Assembly (NCBI RefSeq): GCF_000504205.1
Contig: NZ_AZAJ01000001.1
Span: forward strand, 1,400,879-1,464,878
Origin: Methanolobus tindarius DSM 2278
GTDB lineage: Archaea > Halobacteriota > Methanosarcinia > Methanosarcinales > Methanosarcinaceae
Length of the DNA stretch: 64,000 nucleotides
Reading direction: 5' to 3'
Shown here: piece after piece, positions 20 to 30,932 of the stretch
Position numbering within the stretch: the stretch's first letter is position 1
Layout: each line of letters starts with the position of its first letter
Notes under the pieces: model-generated
The model's input: only the letters and a program-made list of their open reading frames with translations
Database searches by the model: none
Told to the model about the DNA's origin: nothing
Made by a program: the position numbers and the translations under genes

Positions 20-766
20 TCAGTCTGATATAACTGCAAATTTATTATTGTTGTCCTGAATTGCCGATAAATTACTTGCAGGATAATATTTCCTAAACCT
101 TCCATCTTTTTCATCACGTATCATATTTTCATCTTTCAACCTGGTTATGTGCCAGTGAATAGTGCTCTTGTCAACCCCGATTTTTTCAGATAATTCCTTA
201 CCAGTCACACCTGGTTCATCACATATTGTTTCCAGGACACACTTTCTGGTATCACCTTGCATATTAGAACCTGCAGCTTGCAGATCGTTCTCATTGGAAT
301 TCCCTTTGCTGAAGTAATTAATAAATCGCCCCTGCTTTAGAGCAATAAGTAGATTTGAAAGCTGAAGCTTATCAGCATGATACCTGAAGGTTCCTCTTTT
401 CATCTTCAGTTCTGAAAGAACATCACTCTCTGAGCACCCAGGATTTTCTGATACATATGAAAGTATCTTTTCCCTGTTCTTTTCACCTTTTGTACATGCT
501 ACTTTTCCAAGAAGCAACGGGATGAATTTACCTATTGAAACTATGATGAACCAGATGGTACAACCTATCCATATGAATTTGAAATATAAGGGAAGATCCC
601 AGAAAGTCAGAATTCCATCTGAACCTGTATTATGGATATTCTCCGGAGGAATGTCTTCTGGAGGTTCAAAGGTGACATAAACTTCGGCACTTGCAACATA
701 ACAATTGCAGATAATCAAAATCAAAAAAATTATTATTTTCAAGGTGTCGTGTAACTTTAATTTCAA
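20..766 (-). CDS. Membrane-anchored double winged-helix transcriptional regulator
   Basis: The 248-residue protein has an N-terminal signal or anchor segment (about 8-27), a short extracytoplasmic stretch, a membrane helix (about 61-87) and two winged-helix DNA-binding domains (about 95-155 and 172-230, ArsR/MarR-like). This layout suggests a regulator held at the membrane that senses outside the cell and binds DNA inside. The start is TTG at 766, preceded by a GGTGG-containing ribosome site. It is divergent from the secreted-protein/ABC block, so control of that block is an inference from position. A decayed copy of its 5' half lies at 7536-7690. Domain type is fairly sure; the targets are not known. 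Confidence 0.8.
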   Translation of the reverse strand: MKLKLHDTLKIIIFLILIICNCYVASAEVYVTFEPPEDIPPENIHNTGSDGILTFWDLPLYFKFIWIGCTIWFIIVSIGKFIPLLLGKVACTKGEKNREKILSYVSENPGCSESDVLSELKMKRGTFRYHADKLQLSNLLIALKQGRFINYFSKGNSNENDLQAAGSNMQGDTRKCVLETICDEPGVTGKELSEKIGVDKSTIHWHITRLKDENMIRDEKDGRFRKYYPASNLSAIQDNNNKFAVISD

Positions 767-1028
767 GTAATGGACCCCACCATCACATCATTTGTAGATA
801 CGTACTACGTTTAAACAAACTTCAGCTTGAAGATAACAAATATGTGATATATAGATTATGGCCAATCATTCCAACTAATTTCAAAATACTATTTTACCAT
901 ACATAACCCACTATTTGATACAGAGAAGAAAAAAGTAGAAAACGCCACATACAGGCAGGATTATTAATCAATCCTTTAACATAAATATTACAAATATAAA
1001 TATAATTCATATTTTTGCATACTCAGTT

Positions 1029-1058
1029 TAAACGATGGCCACAATAGTTAAGTATTTC
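1029..1058 (+). promoter_or_regulatory. Shared promoter/operator motif, copy A
   Basis: TGGCCA (1036-1041) is followed by a TTAAGTATTT stretch that can serve as the TATA box. The same arrangement occurs at 8054, 11458 and 13679, always before a plus-strand gene. A TATA box here would put the transcription start near 1078, exactly where the foldable leader begins. Confidence 0.6.
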
Positions 1059-1077: not shown

Positions 1078-1200
1078 TCACATTGGAATAATGTGGAGTG
1101 GGGTCCAAACTAAACTTGCAGAGTCGGCTTGAACCCCGAAACGCCCTAAGGCAAGGTTATGGTTGGTTTTGATAGTGTTTAAGGTTTGCGTAATCTTGCC
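1078..1200 (+). ncRNA. Candidate structured 5' leader RNA, copy A
   Basis: Three helices can be drawn: CACAT/ATGTG (1078-1082 with 1090-1094), GGGGT/ACCCC (1099-1103 with 1132-1136) and GGCAAGGTT/AATCTTGCC (1149-1157 with 1191-1199, one G-U pair). A nearly identical core occurs at 8097-8222 and a diverged relative at 13714-13830, each in a 5' leader. It fits none of the riboswitch classes I could recall. A cis-regulatory role is inferred. Confidence 0.5.
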
Positions 1201-1233
1201 TCAGGAGTAATTTGAAACGAGGTAAGAAAGAAA

Positions 1234-1647
1234 ATGAAAACTAGCATAATTGCAAAGATAGGAATTTCGATGTTAGTAATGTTGATAGCCGTTGGAACAG
1301 CATCTGCATCAGGAGGGGGATCGTATGCGACCGCAGAAGAAATAGAGGTTGCAGACGGAGATTTTGAAATGATTCGAGGTACTTACAGTGCAGATGACTG
1401 GTATGTTTTTGAGGAAGTTGGCAATGGTGATACAATTTATGTTGACATACAAGAATCATTTACAGATGCAGGTGGTTTCTTGGACTTGCATGACGACGGT
1501 CAGGGAGATATAGAGATACATCTGCCTAATTCTAATGATGACCAAGAAACAAGTGTTACATCAGACCCACTGCCTCGTATTTATGTTGAAGCAGGAACAC
1601 AGTTTTCTTATAAATACTTGGTTGCAAGGAATAGTCCGCTATTCTAA
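1234..1647 (+). CDS. Small secreted PPC-like domain protein
   Basis: This 137-residue protein has a signal peptide (about 1-26, ending ASA) and then a compact beta-rich domain with the spacing of bacterial pre-peptidase C-terminal (PPC) domains, including a YSADDWYVFEEV segment and acidic repeats. It has no other recognisable domain. It starts at ATG after GAGGTAAG. It is the first gene after the foldable leader and has its own terminator before the exporter genes, so it may be made at higher level than they are. It could be a surface or exported partner of the ABC system; that is inference. Confidence 0.7.
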   Translation: MKTSIIAKIGISMLVMLIAVGTASASGGGSYATAEEIEVADGDFEMIRGTYSADDWYVFEEVGNGDTIYVDIQESFTDAGGFLDLHDDGQGDIEIHLPNSNDDQETSVTSDPLPRIYVEAGTQFSYKYLVARNSPLF

Positions 1648-3351: not shown

Positions 3352-4251
3352 ATGAATACAATGCAAAGTGTGTTTGTGATTTCAGAAAAAGAATTTGCAG
3401 ATAATATATGGAGTCCTAAATTATTGGCATTGATAGTTATAATTACATCCTCAATATTCTCCAGAACTTACCTTTCCGGAATAACACAAAATTCTGATTT
3501 ATTGGGAGGGTTTCTTGATGTTGCAAAAATAATATCTCTTTTTCTTCCACTCGTAGGAGTTGTCCTTGGGTTTGATGCAATAAGCAAGGAGAAGGATAGT
3601 GGAGCTCTTAATGTACTTTTAACACATCCTGTGTACAGGGATACAATTGTAGCAGGAAAAACACTAGGTGCAATGGGTACATTGGCGCTTATTGTTTTTA
3701 TATCAACTATCACTGTAATTGGAGCAAGATTGATTTCTTCAGGATTAGAATTAAATTCATTAGCCATTAGTAGACTTCTTATTTTTTCAATTCTTACATA
3801 CTTTTATTTATCCATATTCATTTCCTTTGCGATGTTCAGTTCAATAATAACAAATAATTCTACAAATGCACTAATTTACAATATAGCAACATGGCTAATA
3901 CTGTGTATTGCTTTTGGAATGATTGCGGCAACAGCTGCTTCTTTTGTAACAGATGAAAAACCTCTGGACTTGAGTGACAATAATAATTTTTTGATTATGA
4001 ATGCAAATTTGCAACAATTATCTCCTTCTCACCATTATTTAATGGCTGTATCCGGTAACCCCAGTCCTGGGTGGTCAGGAGTTTCAAGTGGTAGACCAGA
4101 GGTAGATGGTATATTTGATACAAAACACACCCTTCATCAGTGGTGGAACGAACTTGGAGTGAATGTTATAATATTGATAATTAGCCCTGTTTTTTTGACA
4201 ATAATAACATATATAGTATTTTTGCGTAAGGATTTGAGTAATGTGGGGTAA
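3352..4251 (+). CDS. ABC-2 type permease (NosY-like), first copy
   Basis: A 299-residue integral membrane protein with about six hydrophobic segments and the cytoplasmic loop SGALNVLLTHPVYRD typical of ABC-2/NosY permeases. It is clearly paralogous to the next gene, which has SGSLNVLLTHPVYRD at the same place, so the pair arose by tandem duplication and probably forms a heterodimeric channel. It has a GGGAGATCAG ribosome site and sits in an operon with the ATPase at 6331. The transported substrate cannot be read from sequence. Confidence 0.85.
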   Translation: MNTMQSVFVISEKEFADNIWSPKLLALIVIITSSIFSRTYLSGITQNSDLLGGFLDVAKIISLFLPLVGVVLGFDAISKEKDSGALNVLLTHPVYRDTIVAGKTLGAMGTLALIVFISTITVIGARLISSGLELNSLAISRLLIFSILTYFYLSIFISFAMFSSIITNNSTNALIYNIATWLILCIAFGMIAATAASFVTDEKPLDLSDNNNFLIMNANLQQLSPSHHYLMAVSGNPSPGWSGVSSGRPEVDGIFDTKHTLHQWWNELGVNVIILIISPVFLTIITYIVFLRKDLSNVG

Positions 4252-4255
4252 TTAA

Positions 4256-5119
4256 ATGAACAACAAAAACATATTCGTGATTGCTAAAAAGGAAGCTAAT
4301 GACTACCTTCATGACAGTGGTTTCTTAATAATACTTTCAATATGTACAGTGATAATATTCGCTTCTACATACATCCCAGCCTCCATGACAACCGCAACAA
4401 CAGTTTTGAGCAGTATAAATGTTAAAATGATATCACAGTTTATTCCATTAATTGGTATAGCTCTTGGTTTTAATACAGTAGTAAAGGAAAGAATATCAGG
4501 ATCATTGAACGTCTTGCTGACCCATCCAGTGTATAGGGACAACATCATTACAGGAAAAATAGTTGGAACAATCCTGGTGTTAGCTGTCATAATCGTATTT
4601 TCAGTTTTAGTATCTACTGGTGCAGTAATCATTTTTTATGGGAGGGCAGTTGAATATATGGAATTGGAACGCATATTTATATTAACTATATTTACATTTC
4701 TTTATGCTTGTATATATTTATTTATATCTGTTTTTATTTCAATCAATGTTAAAACATCTTCAGAAGCTTTAATATACAACATAATAATCTGGCTTGCAAC
4801 TTGCGTATTATTTGGTTCACTGCTTAAAACTACTGTTTTTATACTGACTGAGCAGACATCGGTTGATAGTGTACTGATAATGCAACTTTTGAATCTGTCA
4901 CCAATACACCATTATGCCCAAGCAATTGGTGGCTCTGCAGACTATGGTTTTGGAGGAGTTAATGCAAAAGCTGCCATTTATGGATTTTTTGATACCCGGT
5001 ATACACTCACTCAAATATTCAACGAATTCTGGGTAAATATTGTAATACTAATAATAACTCCAATAATCCTTCTTGTTGCAACTTTCATTACATTTCTGCG
5101 GAAAGATATTACACTTTAA
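4256..5119 (+). CDS. ABC-2 type permease (NosY-like), second copy
   Basis: A 287-residue membrane protein, paralogous along its whole length to the preceding gene and starting 4 bases after it. It keeps the conserved loop and a C-terminal hydrophobic segment ending in FLRKD, as does its twin. It should pair with that permease and the ATPase at 6331 as an exporter or membrane-remodelling ABC system. Direction and substrate are unknown. Confidence 0.85.
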   Translation: MNNKNIFVIAKKEANDYLHDSGFLIILSICTVIIFASTYIPASMTTATTVLSSINVKMISQFIPLIGIALGFNTVVKERISGSLNVLLTHPVYRDNIITGKIVGTILVLAVIIVFSVLVSTGAVIIFYGRAVEYMELERIFILTIFTFLYACIYLFISVFISINVKTSSEALIYNIIIWLATCVLFGSLLKTTVFILTEQTSVDSVLIMQLLNLSPIHHYAQAIGGSADYGFGGVNAKAAIYGFFDTRYTLTQIFNEFWVNIVILIITPIILLVATFITFLRKDITL

Positions 5120-5128
5120 AAGGATAAC

Positions 5129-6328
5129 ATGATTTCTATAAAACATATGACTATTGGGGTTACTTTTTGTCTTATATTAGCATCTTCATATGCAAGTGCA
5201 GACTGGTCATCAGTATGCGTAAAAAACCAAATCACTGGGAAAGTGGTCTACCCCGGAGATATTGTTGAGTTTCCTATAACCATAGAGAAAGGGTACAATG
5301 GCACTGATGATTCGTGGTGCACCATGCTAGTAAAAAGTAAGCCTGAGGGGTGGACTGCTGGATTTTATGAAGATAATGACCAGATAACTAACATCTTCTT
5401 TCCTGAGGATGAAAGTGACCCTGTAGATGTTGTTTTGAAGGTGAAAACACCTCAAAACGTATCAGATGGAATTTATTCCATATGGGTAGATATCAAACCA
5501 GATGATGGCGATATCATTTCTAGAGAATTTGCGATTACTGTAGATACCAAAGCTGAACCTAACATTGAGATATACTCAAGTACTCCTGGAATAGAAACAC
5601 GATCAAATGATCCGGTAAAATATCTCCTTACCTTGGAAAACAAGTATGATCATAGGATAACAGTTAATCTGGATACTATTGGTAAATCGGAAAATTTGAG
5701 CGTTGAATTCCTGCAGGAGATCGATGATGAAGAATTCAGACTTAAAACGCTGTCATTAGCTGCAAACTCTCAGTATGATATTCTTATGGGAGTGAAGCCA
5801 TCTATAAATCTAACAGATGGAACATATTCATTCAAGGTCCAAGCGGTACCGGAAAATGGAGGAAATGGCGTTTCACTGAATTTGAATCTGATAATCAATA
5901 ACAATTTAGAAACTGAGGAAATGCTGACTATATCGCAAAGTACATCCAGTCTAGTTCTCAATCCTGGTTCTTCGAAAGAGATCTATGTTACTTTAAGGAA
6001 TAATGGTGATGAGACACTTACAAATATTGATCTAAAAGTACAGGATGTTACAGGAATTACCGCTGAAGTAAGAAGCTTTGGTACAATTGATGAACTTGAA
6101 CCAGGAGAGTCGTGGGATACTTCAATAGAGATTACCGCGCGTGCGGACGCAAGTCCTGGTACTAAAGACCTTCTAATGAGGGCTGTTAGCGATGACACTC
6201 AAAGCCAAGACGGAAGAGTAGAGATAATAGTGGAAAAGTCAGACAGTGGAGGATTTATTGGGATAGGGATGGTCGTGGTTTCTATACTTTTGTTAATAGT
6301 AATTGTACGTAAGTTTGGAAGGCGATAA
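5129..6328 (+). CDS. Surface-anchored NEW3/Ig-like repeat protein
   Basis: The 399-residue protein has a signal peptide (about 1-24), three beta-sandwich units (about 35-130, 145-255 and 270-370) resembling NEW3/COG1470 domains, and a C-terminal membrane helix (about 376-394) with a basic end. It would sit outside the membrane, anchored beside the permeases. It lies in the operon between the second permease and the ATPase, and proteins of this type accompany NosDFY-like exporters in methanogens. Its binding partner is unknown. Confidence 0.75.
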   Translation: MISIKHMTIGVTFCLILASSYASADWSSVCVKNQITGKVVYPGDIVEFPITIEKGYNGTDDSWCTMLVKSKPEGWTAGFYEDNDQITNIFFPEDESDPVDVVLKVKTPQNVSDGIYSIWVDIKPDDGDIISREFAITVDTKAEPNIEIYSSTPGIETRSNDPVKYLLTLENKYDHRITVNLDTIGKSENLSVEFLQEIDDEEFRLKTLSLAANSQYDILMGVKPSINLTDGTYSFKVQAVPENGGNGVSLNLNLIINNNLETEEMLTISQSTSSLVLNPGSSKEIYVTLRNNGDETLTNIDLKVQDVTGITAEVRSFGTIDELEPGESWDTSIEITARADASPGTKDLLMRAVSDDTQSQDGRVEIIVEKSDSGGFIGIGMVVVSILLLIVIVRKFGRR

Positions 6329-6330
6329 AC

Positions 6331-7326
6331 ATGGAAATAATTAGTAGAGAACAGGAACAAAGCCAAATTATGGAAAGAACCAAGGAATTAGCTATAGAAA
6401 CCATCAATCTAAGTAAATCATTCGGAAAAGAGAAGAAAATACACGCCGTAGATAATCTGAATCTGAAAGTAAAAAAAGGTGAAGTTTTTGGTTTTGTCGG
6501 ACCAAACGGGGCAGGTAAGACAACAACTATGAAAATGCTTATAGGCTTACTGGAACCTACATCTGGAAGTGGAAAAGTGGCAAAATACGACATATTGCAT
6601 GAAATAATCAACATCAGAGAAGAAACAGGAGTCTTACCTGAACCTGCTGGATTTTATGATTACCTAACTGCAAGACAAAATTTACGCTTTTATGCAAAGC
6701 TATATGATATAGATTCTAATGAAAGAGAGAAAAGAATCGAGAACTTACTTGAAACAGTTGGCCTGTCGCGTGCAATCGACCAAAAGATAGGAGGTTTTTC
6801 CACGGGAATGCGAAAGCGTTTTGGGCTTGCTCAAGCCCTAATCAATGAGCCAACAGTACTTTTCCTTGATGAACCTACAAGTGGGATCGATCCTCTTGGT
6901 GCTCAAATGATGAGGAATCTAATAAAAAATCTAAATAAAAGTAAAAGTGTGACAGTATTTTTGAGTTCACACTCAATGGAAGAAGTTGAAGAAATCTGTG
7001 ACAGAATTGCAATTATTGCTAAAGGTAAATTGCTGGCAGTTGGCTCAGTTGAAGATTTGAGAAGTGTGGTAAGGGAAAAGGAAGGAGTACATTATCTACT
7101 TGAAGTTCAGGATATCATACCTTCAGAAGCTGTAGAAATTGTAAAGGATGTAGACGGTGTAGAAGAGGTTGAGATACAATATCCTACACTGAAAGTGCAT
7201 TCTAATTTTAAAAATGGAGCTGAAATTGCAAAAGCATTAGCGAAGACAGGAGGCACTATATCTTTATTAGAAGAACAGGAATTAACTCTGCAAAAATTGT
7301 TCCTCAAGATTATTGAAGAAGCATGA
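6331..7326 (+). CDS. ABC transporter ATP-binding protein (exporter type)
   Basis: The 331-residue protein has Walker A GPNGAGKTT (57-65), signature FSTGM in a GGFSTGMRKR context (about 155), Walker B VLFLDEP and the H-loop SSHSMEE, followed by a C-terminal regulatory extension typical of NosF/CcmA-like ATPases of ABC-2 systems. It starts 2 bases after the NEW3 gene. An alternative ATG lies 13 codons in (MERTKE). It drives the two permeases at 3352 and 4256. Confidence 0.9.
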   Translation: MEIISREQEQSQIMERTKELAIETINLSKSFGKEKKIHAVDNLNLKVKKGEVFGFVGPNGAGKTTTMKMLIGLLEPTSGSGKVAKYDILHEIINIREETGVLPEPAGFYDYLTARQNLRFYAKLYDIDSNEREKRIENLLETVGLSRAIDQKIGGFSTGMRKRFGLAQALINEPTVLFLDEPTSGIDPLGAQMMRNLIKNLNKSKSVTVFLSSHSMEEVEEICDRIAIIAKGKLLAVGSVEDLRSVVREKEGVHYLLEVQDIIPSEAVEIVKDVDGVEEVEIQYPTLKVHSNFKNGAEIAKALAKTGGTISLLEEQELTLQKLFLKIIEEA

Positions 7327-8045: not shown

Positions 8046-8078
8046 TTTAACGATGGCCACAATTGTTAAATAAAATAG
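8046..8078 (+). promoter_or_regulatory. Shared promoter/operator motif, copy B
   Basis: TGGCCA (8054-8059) followed by GTTAAATAAAA, in the same arrangement as copy A at 1036. It lies about 190 bases before the protease start, and the predicted transcription start falls at the beginning of the foldable leader. Confidence 0.6.
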
Positions 8079-8096
8079 CAAGTAATTTTGCAATGT

Positions 8097-8222
8097 CACA
8101 TAGTAATAATGTGGAGTGGGGTCCAAACTAAACTTGCAGAGTCGGCTTGTACCCCGGAACGCCCTAAGGCAAGGTTCTGGTTGACTTTGGTAATGCTCAA
8201 AATTTGCGTGATCTTGCCTTTT
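8097..8222 (+). ncRNA. Candidate structured 5' leader RNA, copy B
   Basis: The core from 8110 to 8175 is nearly identical to 1093-1157, whereas the flanks are more diverged. The same helices form: CACAT/ATGTG, GGGGT/ACCCC and a longer outer helix AGGCAAGGTT/GATCTTGCCT (8167-8176 with 8210-8219). Two bases differ in the closing stem relative to copy A yet pairing is kept through G-U pairs. It ends about 25 bases before the protease ATG. Confidence 0.5.
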
Positions 8223-8246
8223 GGGACTAAACAAAAGGTGAAATCA

Positions 8247-9620
8247 ATGAGAAATAAACAAACTATAGCTATTTGCTTTGTAATAGCAATCATTTGTTCG
8301 ATGGCTGCAAGTGCTGAAGCAGTAGAAGCGTCAAATGATAATTTACAGGCATCTGTAGAATCTGATACACTGAATGAACACTTTGAAAAAATTAGTATTG
8401 ATAAAAGTGATAGACTTAATTTACGCAGCTTTGATTCAATAAAGAAATATGATTTTGTAACCGTTGATCCTATAGCTTTTCAAAAGGATGCGAATTCAGG
8501 TGAAATTACGATAGAGATAGCAGGGGAAGATTTCAAATTAGAGTTAGAACCTGCTATATATATTAATGAAGGAGATACACTCGCCATTCATAATGAAACC
8601 GGCCTATATGAAATTGAAATGCCAGAAATATATACCTACAATGGAAAAGTTGTCGGCTATCCTGAAAGCAAGACTCGTTTTACCGTGTCGGACACAGGAC
8701 TTGTTGGTAGGGTGGAAATCGGTGACATAAAATACATAATTGAACGAGCAGGGTATATCGAAAGAGATGGAAAAAAAACAGCAGTTAATGTTGTGTACAG
8801 TAATGTAGATATATCCCCTAGTGGAACTCTTCCTAGTTCAGATGACCTAGTTTATGATAGTACTGAGACAAGTGATACTTTTACAAGTGGTGAATTATCC
8901 ACGCAAGCTATTGCAAGTAGCATGATATCTACACAAAGTACTAAATCAGCTACTACTGTAGATTTATTAGCAATATATGATGGAGAGTTTAGAGATATCT
9001 TTGGAAACTATGATGACTGTTGCAATGAAATATATGACATGATGGAGACTGTGAATGAAGTATATTCTTCATCTGATATTGGTGTTAACTTGGATATTAC
9101 ACACGTGGTTCGCGATACAGGGTTGGATGAGACAAATGGGACTGCCCTATTAAACGAATTCAGGGACAGGGATGATTTTGTAAAAGAATATTACAACTGT
9201 GACATAGCTTTCTTATACACTGGAAAAGAAATTGACGATAATGTAATAGGAAAAGCGTATAAATATGATACTACACCTAATAAAGCATATGCATTAGCAC
9301 AAATGACACCTGGTAACTCAACATATACTGCAGATTTAGATGATAGATCTATGGTAGTAGCACATGAAATCGGTCATGTATTCAACGCACATCATGAAGA
9401 CTATAATGAAACTCCTATTTATGCGAAGGCCACCCAATGGACCTACTTGCAGGTATGGGATAGATATTCTATTATGTACAGTCAATTCCAAGGAATTGGT
9501 TATTTAGGAGGGATGCAATTCGAATTTTCCACCAATACATCTACTGGCAATGGTGATGCAGACCACGATAATGCAAGATCAATACGTGAGGTAAAAAACA
9601 TAGTAGCAGCATTTGAGTAG
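8247..9620 (+). CDS. Secreted metzincin-type zinc metalloprotease
   Basis: The start is ATG 8247 after GGTG. The longer open frame to 8088 runs through the RNA leader and is not credible. The 457-residue product has a signal peptide (about 1-24), a long prodomain, the zinc site HEIGHVFNAHH (H373, E374, H377, H383) and a Met-turn SIMYS near 409. These are the marks of reprolysin/M12B-like metzincins. It probably acts outside the cell after removal of the prodomain. It shares its promoter and leader type with the PPC-like gene at 1234. Its target is unknown. Confidence 0.88.
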   Translation: MRNKQTIAICFVIAIICSMAASAEAVEASNDNLQASVESDTLNEHFEKISIDKSDRLNLRSFDSIKKYDFVTVDPIAFQKDANSGEITIEIAGEDFKLELEPAIYINEGDTLAIHNETGLYEIEMPEIYTYNGKVVGYPESKTRFTVSDTGLVGRVEIGDIKYIIERAGYIERDGKKTAVNVVYSNVDISPSGTLPSSDDLVYDSTETSDTFTSGELSTQAIASSMISTQSTKSATTVDLLAIYDGEFRDIFGNYDDCCNEIYDMMETVNEVYSSSDIGVNLDITHVVRDTGLDETNGTALLNEFRDRDDFVKEYYNCDIAFLYTGKEIDDNVIGKAYKYDTTPNKAYALAQMTPGNSTYTADLDDRSMVVAHEIGHVFNAHHEDYNETPIYAKATQWTYLQVWDRYSIMYSQFQGIGYLGGMQFEFSTNTSTGNGDADHDNARSIREVKNIVAAFE

Positions 9621-11567: not shown

Positions 11568-11936
11568 ATGAACAACAAACACCTATTTCTAATAGTGATA
11601 TTCACAGGACTTACGTTTCTTGGAATAGCCAACGCCTTGAATAAAAGCGTAATTAGCTTAGGAATCTTAATTGCCATCATAACAGGAATAGTGCTGGGCA
11701 TAAAAATGGATAGAGACGCTCAAAAATACACTTTTTTAGCAGTGTCCACATATAGCATAATTGCATGGGTCTTGATGTTATTATTAACTAAAGACGGAAA
11801 AATTGTATTAGAATCAGGTATCGCAGCCACATCACTTTTAAGTGGGTTTGCAATTATGAATTTTTTATTCAATGCAATAGTTGGATCATTTGCAGCATTT
11901 GTCGCATGCAACATCAGTGACAATAAAACGGACTGA
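11568..11936 (+). CDS. Small four-helix membrane protein
   Basis: The 122-residue protein consists of about four membrane helices (roughly 5-23, 30-46, 55-73 and 85-112) with short loops. I do not recognise the family. It starts at ATG after GGGAAATC and ends 4 bases before the ABC-2 permease, so it is likely the first gene of the second ABC operon and may be an accessory or immunity-type subunit. Confidence 0.65.
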   Translation: MNNKHLFLIVIFTGLTFLGIANALNKSVISLGILIAIITGIVLGIKMDRDAQKYTFLAVSTYSIIAWVLMLLLTKDGKIVLESGIAATSLLSGFAIMNFLFNAIVGSFAAFVACNISDNKTD

Positions 11937-11940
11937 TAAC

Positions 11941-12690
11941 ATGAATATATCAAAAATAAGAATTGTTGCCCAGGACGAGATATTAAGAGGGGTAAAAAGC
12001 AGGCATGTATGGTTTTTCAGCAGTGCCTTAGCATTCATTTGTATTCTGGCAATGCACTACAGCACATCTTTAGCATTCCTGTTTTCAGATCAGGGTAAAA
12101 TTCCGTTCACATATATTTCTTTCATGATAATACTGATTATCGGACCTTTTTTCATACTTGTTACAGCATTTGACAGCATAAGCAACGAAGTTGAGAATGG
12201 AACGATCAGATATATAATTTCAAAAATTGACAGGGCATCTTTTGTGCTTGGCAAGTTTTGTTTTTTATTCCTGATATTTGCACTCCTTACTTTAGTTGTT
12301 GCAATTGTAGGACAGGTAGATAATTTCATATCAGGCAATGCCTTTGACCTGGAAAAAATGATATTATTCTGGCTATTTTCAAGTCTGTATCTGGGCTGTT
12401 TTATCAGTTTGTTTTCCTTCGTTTCAATTCTGTCAGGAAATAACAAAATAGCATTTACAATGTCCGCGGTACTACTGGGAATCACTATATACTTCTTCAT
12501 GCAGGGTGGCATCGAGTATTTGAAGTATTTAACTCCGCCATATTATGCTTTTGCTGTTTCAGAAACTATGAGAAATACCTCCGGAGAAAGTGACTATTTC
12601 AATATAATCAAGAACCTCTTTTCAATGCTGGTCTTTATAATTGCCACTTTATCCATTGATGTATTAGCGTTTAAAAGGAGAGATTTATGA
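11941..12690 (+). CDS. ABC-2 family permease of second exporter
   Basis: The start is ATG 11941; a longer open frame from 11881 overlaps the preceding gene. The 249-residue protein has six hydrophobic segments and the typical ABC-2 loop DSISNEVENGTIRYIISK. It is a different subfamily from the permeases at 3352 and 4256. It overlaps the downstream ATPase gene (ATGA), which marks translational coupling. It probably homodimerises. The substrate is not known. Confidence 0.85.
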   Translation: MNISKIRIVAQDEILRGVKSRHVWFFSSALAFICILAMHYSTSLAFLFSDQGKIPFTYISFMIILIIGPFFILVTAFDSISNEVENGTIRYIISKIDRASFVLGKFCFLFLIFALLTLVVAIVGQVDNFISGNAFDLEKMILFWLFSSLYLGCFISLFSFVSILSGNNKIAFTMSAVLLGITIYFFMQGGIEYLKYLTPPYYAFAVSETMRNTSGESDYFNIIKNLFSMLVFIIATLSIDVLAFKRRDL

Positions 12691-13622
12691 TGGCAACAGC
12701 AATCTCCATAAAAAACCTGCACAAAAAATATGGTCCAAGATACGTACTGGATGATCTGTCATTTGATGTGGAAAAAGGAAGTATATACGGTTTTCTTGGA
12801 CAAAATGGTGCCGGAAAAACAACTACTATCAAGATACTATCTGGACTCTCAATTTCAAACGAAGGTCAGATAATTATTGATAACATGGATTCGTCCCTGG
12901 AAGCTGAGAAAATCAAAAATATATTAGGTCTGGTTCCACAAGATTCTGAATTTTATGATGAACGCACTGCCCTTAGCCACATGAATTATTTTGCCAGACT
13001 GAAAGGTCTTAGCAAAGATGAAGGACAGGAACAATCAATGTTTTTACTGGAACGTGTTGGTCTTGCAAATGAAATGACAAAAAAAGTTGGCTCTTTTTCC
13101 CATGGAATGAAAAAGCGGCTAAGCATTGCACAAGCTCTTTTAAATGACCCTAAAATACTCATTCTCGATGAACCTACAAACGGTCTTGATCCTGTTGGAG
13201 TGCGACAGGTCAAACAGATAATCCGTGAGTGCAATGATATTGGCATTACAATCTTAGTTTCATCCCACAACCTTCTGGAAATTCAGGAGATATGCACCCA
13301 TGTAGGGATTTTGAAAAATGGCAAGCTTATCACTGAAGGAACAATTGGAGATATCCGGCGGCTTGAGTCAAATGGAGTAATTACAGTTGGAATTTACAAC
13401 ATGTCACCTGAAATAGTATCTTTAGTAGAAAACATGGAATATGTTGTAAAAACCGAATTAAAAGAGAAGAATATTCTGGAGATATATGTTAACTCTAAAA
13501 CAGATGTTAAACCCGAAATTAACAAGTTAATTGTGAACAACGGCGGAGAGGTATTCAAACTTATCGAGAACTCTCTTTCACTGGAAGATGCATACCTTAG
13601 TGCAACCGGAATGAAAGAATAA
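12687..13622 (+). CDS. ABC transporter ATP-binding protein of second exporter
   Basis: A 311-residue ATPase with Walker A GQNGAGKTT (38-46), signature FSHGM, Walker B ILILDEP and H-loop SSHNLLE, then a C-terminal extension of about 85 residues. The first ATG (12687) overlaps the permease stop, and a GGAG site lies just upstream. ATG 12690 is an equally possible start. It powers the 11941 permease. Confidence 0.9.
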   Translation: MMATAISIKNLHKKYGPRYVLDDLSFDVEKGSIYGFLGQNGAGKTTTIKILSGLSISNEGQIIIDNMDSSLEAEKIKNILGLVPQDSEFYDERTALSHMNYFARLKGLSKDEGQEQSMFLLERVGLANEMTKKVGSFSHGMKKRLSIAQALLNDPKILILDEPTNGLDPVGVRQVKQIIRECNDIGITILVSSHNLLEIQEICTHVGILKNGKLITEGTIGDIRRLESNGVITVGIYNMSPEIVSLVENMEYVVKTELKEKNILEIYVNSKTDVKPEINKLIVNNGGEVFKLIENSLSLEDAYLSATGMKE

Positions 13623-13667
13623 AGAGATTTCTGATAAAACTGTATTTTTTAGATTTTATACCCCACA

Positions 13668-13700
13668 GTTTGAATCTTTGGCCATAACAACTAAATAAAT
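13668..13700 (+). promoter_or_regulatory. Shared promoter/operator motif, copy C
   Basis: TGGCCA (13679-13684) followed by TAACAACTAAATAAAT, matching copies A, B and D. It lies about 200 bases before the 13883 gene, with a foldable leader between. Confidence 0.6.
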
Positions 13701-13713
13701 TAATGTGTTTTTT

Positions 13714-13830
13714 AGTAATAACCCCCACAAATAGAGAAAGTCCGTGGGAACCCAATGTACCAACCGCAAGGTCACACAATACCATCCGATCAAAACTCAC
13801 GTACATGTGGCCTTGCTCCCCAACTTTCTG
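13714..13830 (+). ncRNA. Candidate structured 5' leader RNA, copy C (diverged)
   Basis: It shares order and short words with copies A and B (an AGTC-G-GG-AACCC core, then GCAAGGT), but most positions differ. Pairings are CCCAC/GTGGG (13724-13728 with 13744-13748), an 11-pair helix GCAAGGTCACA/TGTGGCCTTGC (13766-13776 with 13806-13816) and a distal AGAAAGT/ACTTTCT pairing (13735-13741 with 13823-13829). The last would cross or enclose the others. Keeping the main helix with different bases supports a real RNA structure. Confidence 0.45.
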
Positions 13831-25775: not shown

Positions 25776-25898
25776 AGATGGCAGCGTTCCATATTTCCCA
25801 AAGACTCTCATACTTTAGTACAGTATAGAACGCAGGCGGGCTTATCTTCTGTGTTCGGGATGGGTACAGGAATTGCCCCGCCGCTATGGCCGCCAAAC
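25776..25898 (-). rRNA. 5S rRNA
   Basis: The minus strand carries archaeal 5S signatures (GGCGGCCATAGCGGCGGGG, CCCATCCCGAACAC, GATAAGCCCGCC). The gene is bracketed by a perfect nine-base pairing GTGAGTGAG/CTCACTCAC (25769-25777 and 25898-25906), which probably serves as processing stem. Ends are accurate to a few bases. Confidence 0.92.
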
Positions 25899-25924
25899 TC
25901 ACTCACGATGAACGATAAAGTTTA

Positions 25925-25996
25925 AGCCAAGATCCGGATTCGAACCGGAATGGAATCGCTCTGCAGGCGATTGCGTAGCCGCTCCGCCATCTTGGC
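25925..25996 (-). tRNA. tRNA-Cys (GCA)
   Basis: A full cloverleaf of 72 bases on the minus strand: acceptor GCCAAGA/TCTTGGC with U73, anticodon loop CTGCAGA giving GCA, and TTCGAATC in the T arm. It lies between 23S and 5S rRNA, whereas in halophilic archaea the Cys tRNA is distal to 5S. Confidence 0.93.
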
Positions 25997-26063
25997 AATG
26001 AGCGATACATGGATGGAACCATTGTATAAATACTTTATCAATGAATCGTGAATACTCTCATAC

Positions 26064-29053
<2,990 letters not shown>

Positions 29054-29140
29054 ATGCATATACACGATTTCATAGCAGCTGTTGTTGCTTCAGCCGCTTC
29101 ATCCTTCCCCACAGACGTTACTCTGTGAGTGCACTAATAA

Positions 29141-29213
29141 TGGACTTGCAGGGATTCGAACCCTGGGCCTTCGCCTTGCAAAGGCGACGATCTTCCAACT
29201 GATCTACAAGCCC
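29141..29213 (-). tRNA. tRNA-Ala (TGC)
   Basis: A 73-base cloverleaf on the minus strand with acceptor GGGCTTG/CAAGTCC plus A73, anticodon loop TTTGCAA (TGC) and T-arm GGTTCGAATCC. It sits in the 16S-23S spacer as in most euryarchaea. Confidence 0.95.
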
Positions 29214-29271
29214 ATAGAAGATTCACTTATTGAATCTTGCCTTTTTTCTTGAATCTGACAGTTTTTCGATT

Positions 29272-30932
<1,661 letters not shown>

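Follow-up and report, generated by a model that had tools for sequence, protein, structure and literature searches.

A candidate Shine-Dalgarno-masking leader RNA shared by secreted-protein genes of methanogens

Two copies of a leader in Methanolobus tindarius

The window, by which we mean the whole 64,000-nucleotide stretch analyzed here (Methanolobus tindarius DSM 2278, contig NZ_AZAJ01000001.1, positions 1,400,879 to 1,464,878), carries two copies of a leader, A (1078-1227) and B (8096-8241), which a within-genome search aligned at 89% identity over 123-124 nt (E 5e-40). Unrelated secreted-protein ORFs lie directly downstream: copy A precedes the gene for a 137-aa secreted protein (1234..1647) that has a signal peptide and is without a Pfam match, and copy B the gene for a secreted M12B/reprolysin-like metalloprotease (8247..9620; Pfam Reprolysin_5, E 3.9e-18). 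A sequence-only reading of the window had already proposed that the two unrelated genes share a structured leader, with an outer helix and a GGGGT/ACCCC helix kept in both copies and a long identical core set against a diverged spacer. All of this was borne out: the core is nearly identical, flanks, spacer and downstream region have diverged, and the GGGGT/ACCCC helix and a helix of about 10 pairs (GGCAAGGTTA/TAATCTTGCC) occur in A and B, with many compensatory changes in relatives. The same reading placed the end of the element at 1200 and 8222, about 30 nt too early, as the copies continue through the Shine-Dalgarno (SD) sequences at 1219-1227 and 8232-8241, just 5' of the start codons at 1234 and 8247. 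It also overlooked a mutually exclusive, SD-sequestering helix, the feature that suggests a mechanism.

All features of both copies and their genes lie on the plus strand. Copy A is preceded by a putative promoter (1025..1057) in which a conserved AGTTTAAACGATGGCCACAATAG block, common to the upstream regions of most relatives, is followed by a TATA-like TTAAGTATT. The leader opens with hairpin P1 (1079..1095; CACATT 1079-1084 pairing with AATGTG 1090-1095), in which 6 of 6 pairs covary among 147 sequences, and hairpin P2 (1099..1138; TGGGGTCCAA 1099-1108 with TTGAACCCCG 1129-1138), which has double changes at 10 of 10 pairs, for instance from GGGG/CCCC to GGAG/CUCC, GAAG and others. Segments 1 and 2 (1143..1159; GCCC 1143-1146 and AAGGCAAGGTTA 1148-1159) can form a local GCC-CUAA-GGC hairpin. 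They are followed by the P4 stem-loop (1163..1189; TTGGTTTTGAT..GTTTAAGGTTTGC), whose helices, numbered 4-5 in the model, show double changes at 10 of 10 pairs with 88-91% of cells paired. Segment 3 (1194..1202; TCTTGCCTC) has two possible partners, as the swap tests described below indicate: segment 2, forming P3 and leaving the SD free, or segment 4, which is the SD itself (GAGGTAAGA, 1219..1227), hidden by 9 bp of complementarity to 1194-1202. Copy B repeats this order with a putative promoter (ACGATGGCCACAAT and TATA-like TTAAATAAA, 8050..8074), P1 (8097..8113), P2 (8117..8156; TGGGGTCCAA with TTGTACCCCG), segments 1 and 2 (8161..8176; GCCC and AAGGCAAGGTT), segment 3 (8214..8223; TTGCCTTTTG) and segment 4 (CAAAAGGTGA, 8232..8241), the last two forming 10 complementary pairs that have changed in step relative to copy A. 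The TATA-like sequence of each copy precedes the 5' edge by about 25 nt, which fits a transcription start at that edge.

The copy B leader is open in frame with the protease gene (8088-9620), so that an annotation pipeline might predict a 510-aa protein whose start lies within the RNA. Besides A and B, the genome holds a third copy on the minus strand (L083, G000:C1:105283-105412) in which segment 3 has decayed and the SD is absent; this copy is likely a remnant. The stretch 13714-13830, which the sequence-only reading counted as a third copy, has no covariance model match even with all filters off and was ruled out as a family member; only promoter-like sequence is held in common. This locus carries a promoter-like block (CAGTTTGAAT..TTGGCCATAA..TAAATAAATT, 13640-13720) without the RNA element and may share only a transcription factor with the leader copies. 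ABC-2 type export operons lie 3' of both leader genes (3352-7323 and 11881-13622), and ABC-2 genes recur near leaders elsewhere. The window further contains a complete archaeal rRNA operon (16S, 23S, 5S) with two tRNAs (25776-30787, minus strand).

A structured RNA family in two archaeal orders

With copy A as the BLAST query, 21 of 100 related genomes gave matches. A covariance model, R1, built from 11 sequences and comprising 131 positions and 40 pairs, matched 67 of 112 genomes (11 of 14 genera) of the window's family and 97 of 186 genomes of its order, reaching 19 full-length copies in a single genome, sometimes in clusters, for example seven within 28 kb; of 393 genomes drawn from the phylum, only 5 outside the order matched. 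A second model, built from 150 members, matched 39 of 120 genomes of another order, presumably Methanomicrobiales, with up to 11 copies each, and in the window's own genome returned copies A and B and the decayed third copy only. The copy-rich genus is Methanosarcina, of which several complete genomes carry the leader. Within Methanolobus itself, 12 of 27 genomes gave no match, so the leader is not universal. Two apparent bacterial members, on contigs filed as Syntrophomonadaceae and Clostridia MAGs (L145, JAHDSE010000132.1; L158, QKAS01000023.1), were rejected as mis-binned Methanosarcina DNA, since over kilobases they share about 70-90% identity with loci of that genus.

The model-aligned set of 147 distinct sequences has 88.7% of its cells paired and shows double changes at 39 of the 40 pairs. 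The outcome that would have spoken against the sequence-only reading, a lack of further matches with compensatory changes, thus did not occur. The covariation score was 0.364 as against 0.189 for shuffled alignments (0 of 500 reaching it), sliding the partners abolished the signal, and the result was repeated over 34 pairs in an alignment whose sequences come mostly from the second order (0 of 500). The alignments (A5 and A7) are fitted to the model and hence favor its pairs, but the margins are large. Independent of this fit are the segment 3:4 swap tests and an RNAalifold run on a separate MAFFT alignment, in which P2 and P4 reappeared, again with compensatory changes. Four hairpin regions have covariation support, and together these data establish the family and its structure. 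From 5' to 3', the consensus reads: an optional P1; P2, GGRGUUCAA..UUGAACYCC; UGCCCNRAGGCA, the most conserved core in both orders; P4, UUgGYUUUR..UAYUUAARgYUU; and UUGCCUCNGG. P1 is probably missing from the transcript of some Methanosarcina copies, because the TATA box there lies close to P2. A pseudoknot between the P2 and P4 loops was considered and rejected, as a mutual-information scan gave no supporting covariation.

Rfam 15 at gathering thresholds returned zero matches at copies A and B and at 13 further loci with relatives. The best permissive match to copy A, ARRPOF RNA (RF02933), scored with that copy alone, reached 19 bits against a cut-off of 127, i.e., chance level, and was discarded as its identity. 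With hundreds of model matches and none in Rfam, the suggestion of a new structured leader unlike known riboswitches stands, and a literature search outside subscription journals found no earlier description.

Competing helices and the genes they precede

Segment 3 (UUGCCUCN) is complementary to two partners, the upstream segment 2 (RAGGCAA) and segment 4, the SD (NGAGGUAA). Segments 3 and 4 change in concert: GCCUC/GAGGU in copy A becomes CCUUUUG/CAAAAGG in copy B, CUCCUG/CAGGAG or CUCCUAG/CUAGGAG in Methanosarcina, and CCUCCG with UGGAGG or CGGAGG in the second order. We assessed both helices by a partner-swap test in which segments are exchanged among leaders and which makes no use of the model's 3' extension. 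In helix 3:4, own partners paired at -10.9 kcal/mol and swapped ones at -9.2 kcal/mol in 122 leaders, at -11.6 and -9.0 kcal/mol in 34 dissimilar representatives, and at -12.3 and -10.9 kcal/mol in the second order; for 2:3, the values were -17.0 and -15.0 kcal/mol in 135 leaders and -16.2 and -13.6 kcal/mol in 58 representatives, each comparison with 0 of 5000 permutations as extreme, where permutation corrects only partly for kinship and representatives reduce rather than remove the effect of relatedness. These whole-segment swaps supersede a single-nucleotide triple test based on regular expressions, which gave weaker support (p 0.0008 and 0.003).

The two folds lie close in predicted energy. 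OFF minus ON had a median of 2.9 kcal/mol and fell within 5 kcal/mol in 76 of 116 leaders. The OFF fold was the more stable in 24 of the 116 at 37 C, and ON in most; copy A favors ON by 3.1 kcal/mol, and copy B, one of the 24, favors OFF by 3.9 kcal/mol. Several leaders, in their predicted OFF fold, have a small UGCC-CNRA-GGCA hairpin made of segments 1 and 2. Covariation of both competing helices and near-equal predicted energies of the two folds are established. As ON is the more stable fold in most leaders, an effector may be needed for turning off.

An ORF of at least 60 aa lies downstream of 131 of 147 leaders, mostly starting 18-25 nt after the element. A crude test that scores membrane proteins too called a signal-peptide-like hydrophobic N-terminus in 120 of these 131 ORFs, compared with 17 of 44 long ORFs in the window. 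Of 36 leaders read in the second order, nearly all precede an exported protein, again about 20 nt downstream. The association with secreted proteins is thus established, and the mature domains, some of them unknowns, are largely unrelated: among 57 representatives, Pfam recognized M12B reprolysins, C39-like peptidases, matrixins, DUF3160, HEAT repeats and others, to which NCBIfam added a halocin C8-like domain. Four Methanosarcina leaders (L104:5809-6249, L113:2147-2587, L090:14615-15055 and L097:4376-4816) stand before a 147-aa ORF (MCEKQKSELL..) without an obvious signal peptide, possibly an exception or a truncated gene. Two leaders nearly identical to copy A (L005 and L006) precede, like copy A, mature domains that are unrelated, as though promoter, leader and signal peptide travelled together in one cassette. 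A conserved leader peptide was rejected: ATG-initiated upstream ORFs of at least 8 codons occur in 76 of 147 leaders, frames and peptides are not conserved in the sample read, and neither the 13-codon ORF of copy A nor the frame of copy B that is open into the gene is kept in relatives.

The DNA upstream is shared as well. Among 81 upstream regions, GTTNGATGAT occurs in 37 (2.2 expected) and TGGNCANAA in 52 (12.8 expected), with a TATA-like box following, and motifs this common suggest that the regulon may also share a transcription factor. In four regions (L135, L137, L138 and L140) the motif forms an inverted repeat (ATCATCCAACTG..CAGTTGGATGAT), which suggests a dimeric factor; many Methanosarcina leaders, e.g., L084 and L113, carry a second block, GTTAATCAGACTGATGAATATTCATC, in its place. 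Among the neighbors of leader genes, winged-helix regulators, FilR1-type and others, are recurrent (8 of 85). In the window, a winged-helix regulator with an N-terminal membrane segment (20-766, minus strand; HTH_24, E 9.8e-16) adjoins copy A on the opposite strand and possibly reads the shared promoter motif.

A proposed switch and its relation to known systems

On strong evidence at the level of sequence evolution, the leader is likely a cis-acting translational on/off switch that coordinates part of the methanogen secretome. Transcription would start at the 5' edge of the leader, and P1 and P2 would fold first. Four mutually complementary segments would follow: 1 (UGCC), 2 (RAGGCAA), 3 and 4 (the SD). 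In the ON state, segment 2 would pair with segment 3 in the long hairpin P3, capped by P4, leaving the SD free and translation on; in the OFF state, segments 1 and 2 would form the small hairpin with its CNRA loop, and the 3:4 helix would hide the SD and turn translation off. A protein or small molecule binding P2/P4 may set the balance in the cell, such that a set of exported proteins, among them proteases in particular, would be made together. Counting against an SD switch, archaeal translation does not always need an SD.

What might act on P2 and P4 divides the two leading explanations. The leader is quite possibly, if short of probably, an operator in which an RNA-binding protein recognizes P2 or P4, since not only the pairing but also the sequence of these helices is conserved (GUUCAA/UUGAAC, UUUR..UUAAR), which is common for protein sites, and one protein could easily deliver a common signal to many exported proteins; against this, no candidate protein has emerged. 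With somewhat more reserve we regard a strict metabolite or ion riboswitch, with P2/P4 as aptamer and segments 1-4 as expression platform. Such a switch would account for a structured domain joined to an SD-masking platform with competing helices, for a single leader type serving many genes of one genome, which is also seen in large riboswitch regulons, and for the presence of the leader in two orders. However, unpaired nucleotides, including those of the loops, are only moderately conserved, below the level of typical metabolite aptamers, and the controlled genes share export rather than a pathway, so that no ligand suggests itself. As the helix sequences are more conserved than the loops, our judgement slightly favors a protein over a small molecule.

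The leader is unlikely to serve export itself, by delivering the mRNA to the membrane or the signal recognition particle with the SD helix only tuning initiation. Signal peptides on nearly all controlled proteins, and a leader that runs straight into the signal-peptide coding region of genes otherwise unrelated, would fit such a role; yet a genome of this size should encode far more secreted proteins than it has leader copies (3 in the genome of the window, at most 19 in others), the competing helices covary down to the SD, which export alone would not need, and the 147-aa ORF behind four Methanosarcina leaders has no obvious signal peptide. Even less likely is an RNA thermometer of the simple kind, with the SD masked in cold or heat: a hairpin does mask the SD, but a thermometer could do without a conserved upstream domain, P2, P4 and the conserved core are kept over two orders, and stability usually lies with the non-masked fold. 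Duplicated promoter DNA, similar through recent copying and devoid of RNA function, would fit the shared upstream motifs and the near-identical leaders before different genes but is scarcely credible, being refuted by compensatory changes throughout, two orders and a fixed distance to the start codon.

To our knowledge, the RNA switches known from archaea are few and for the most part were found as bacterial classes extended to them; the leader described here is archaeal, can be present 19 times in a single genome and links a regulatory RNA with protein export, for which we found no obvious precedent in the literature searched. On a more speculative view, which we hold as doubtful, translational switching by the leader could amount to a new archaeal riboswitch class, unusually abundant for an archaeal genome, in which a ligand reporting nutrient or secretion state would set much of the secretome output of methanogens. 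Since the leader is present in Methanosarcina, a genus with laboratory genetics, control of methanogen extracellular proteases is directly testable.

Among known systems, archaeal ribosomal-protein leaders (S15, eL15, L4) are likewise structured leaders in methanogens, but they precede ribosomal-protein operons (PMC7247131), and the genes found here encode exported proteins. In the same genus, Methanolobus psychrophilus has been proposed to mask ribosome-binding sites in temperature-linked long 5' UTRs, by single-gene folds without a conserved domain (PMC5378194). A thermometer would also mask the SD in its most stable fold, which holds here for the 24 of 116 leaders mentioned above. Closer in architecture are trp-type attenuators, in which four segments are likewise arranged such that 1:2 and 3:4 compete with 2:3. 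Unlike in these, segment 4 is here the SD just before the start codon rather than an intrinsic terminator, there is no U-run, and no leader peptide is conserved. The leader most resembles SD-sequestering translational riboswitches, sharing with them the position in the 5' leader, an upstream structured domain that is conserved through compensatory changes at 39 of 40 pairs, and mutually exclusive helices, one covering the SD, as both swap tests and the folding energies attest. It differs from them in having neither an Rfam family nor a known ligand, and in preceding many unrelated exported proteins instead of the genes of one pathway. The family is thus new to Rfam 15 and to the literature searched and, as a kind, is a variant of known SD-masking leader switches.
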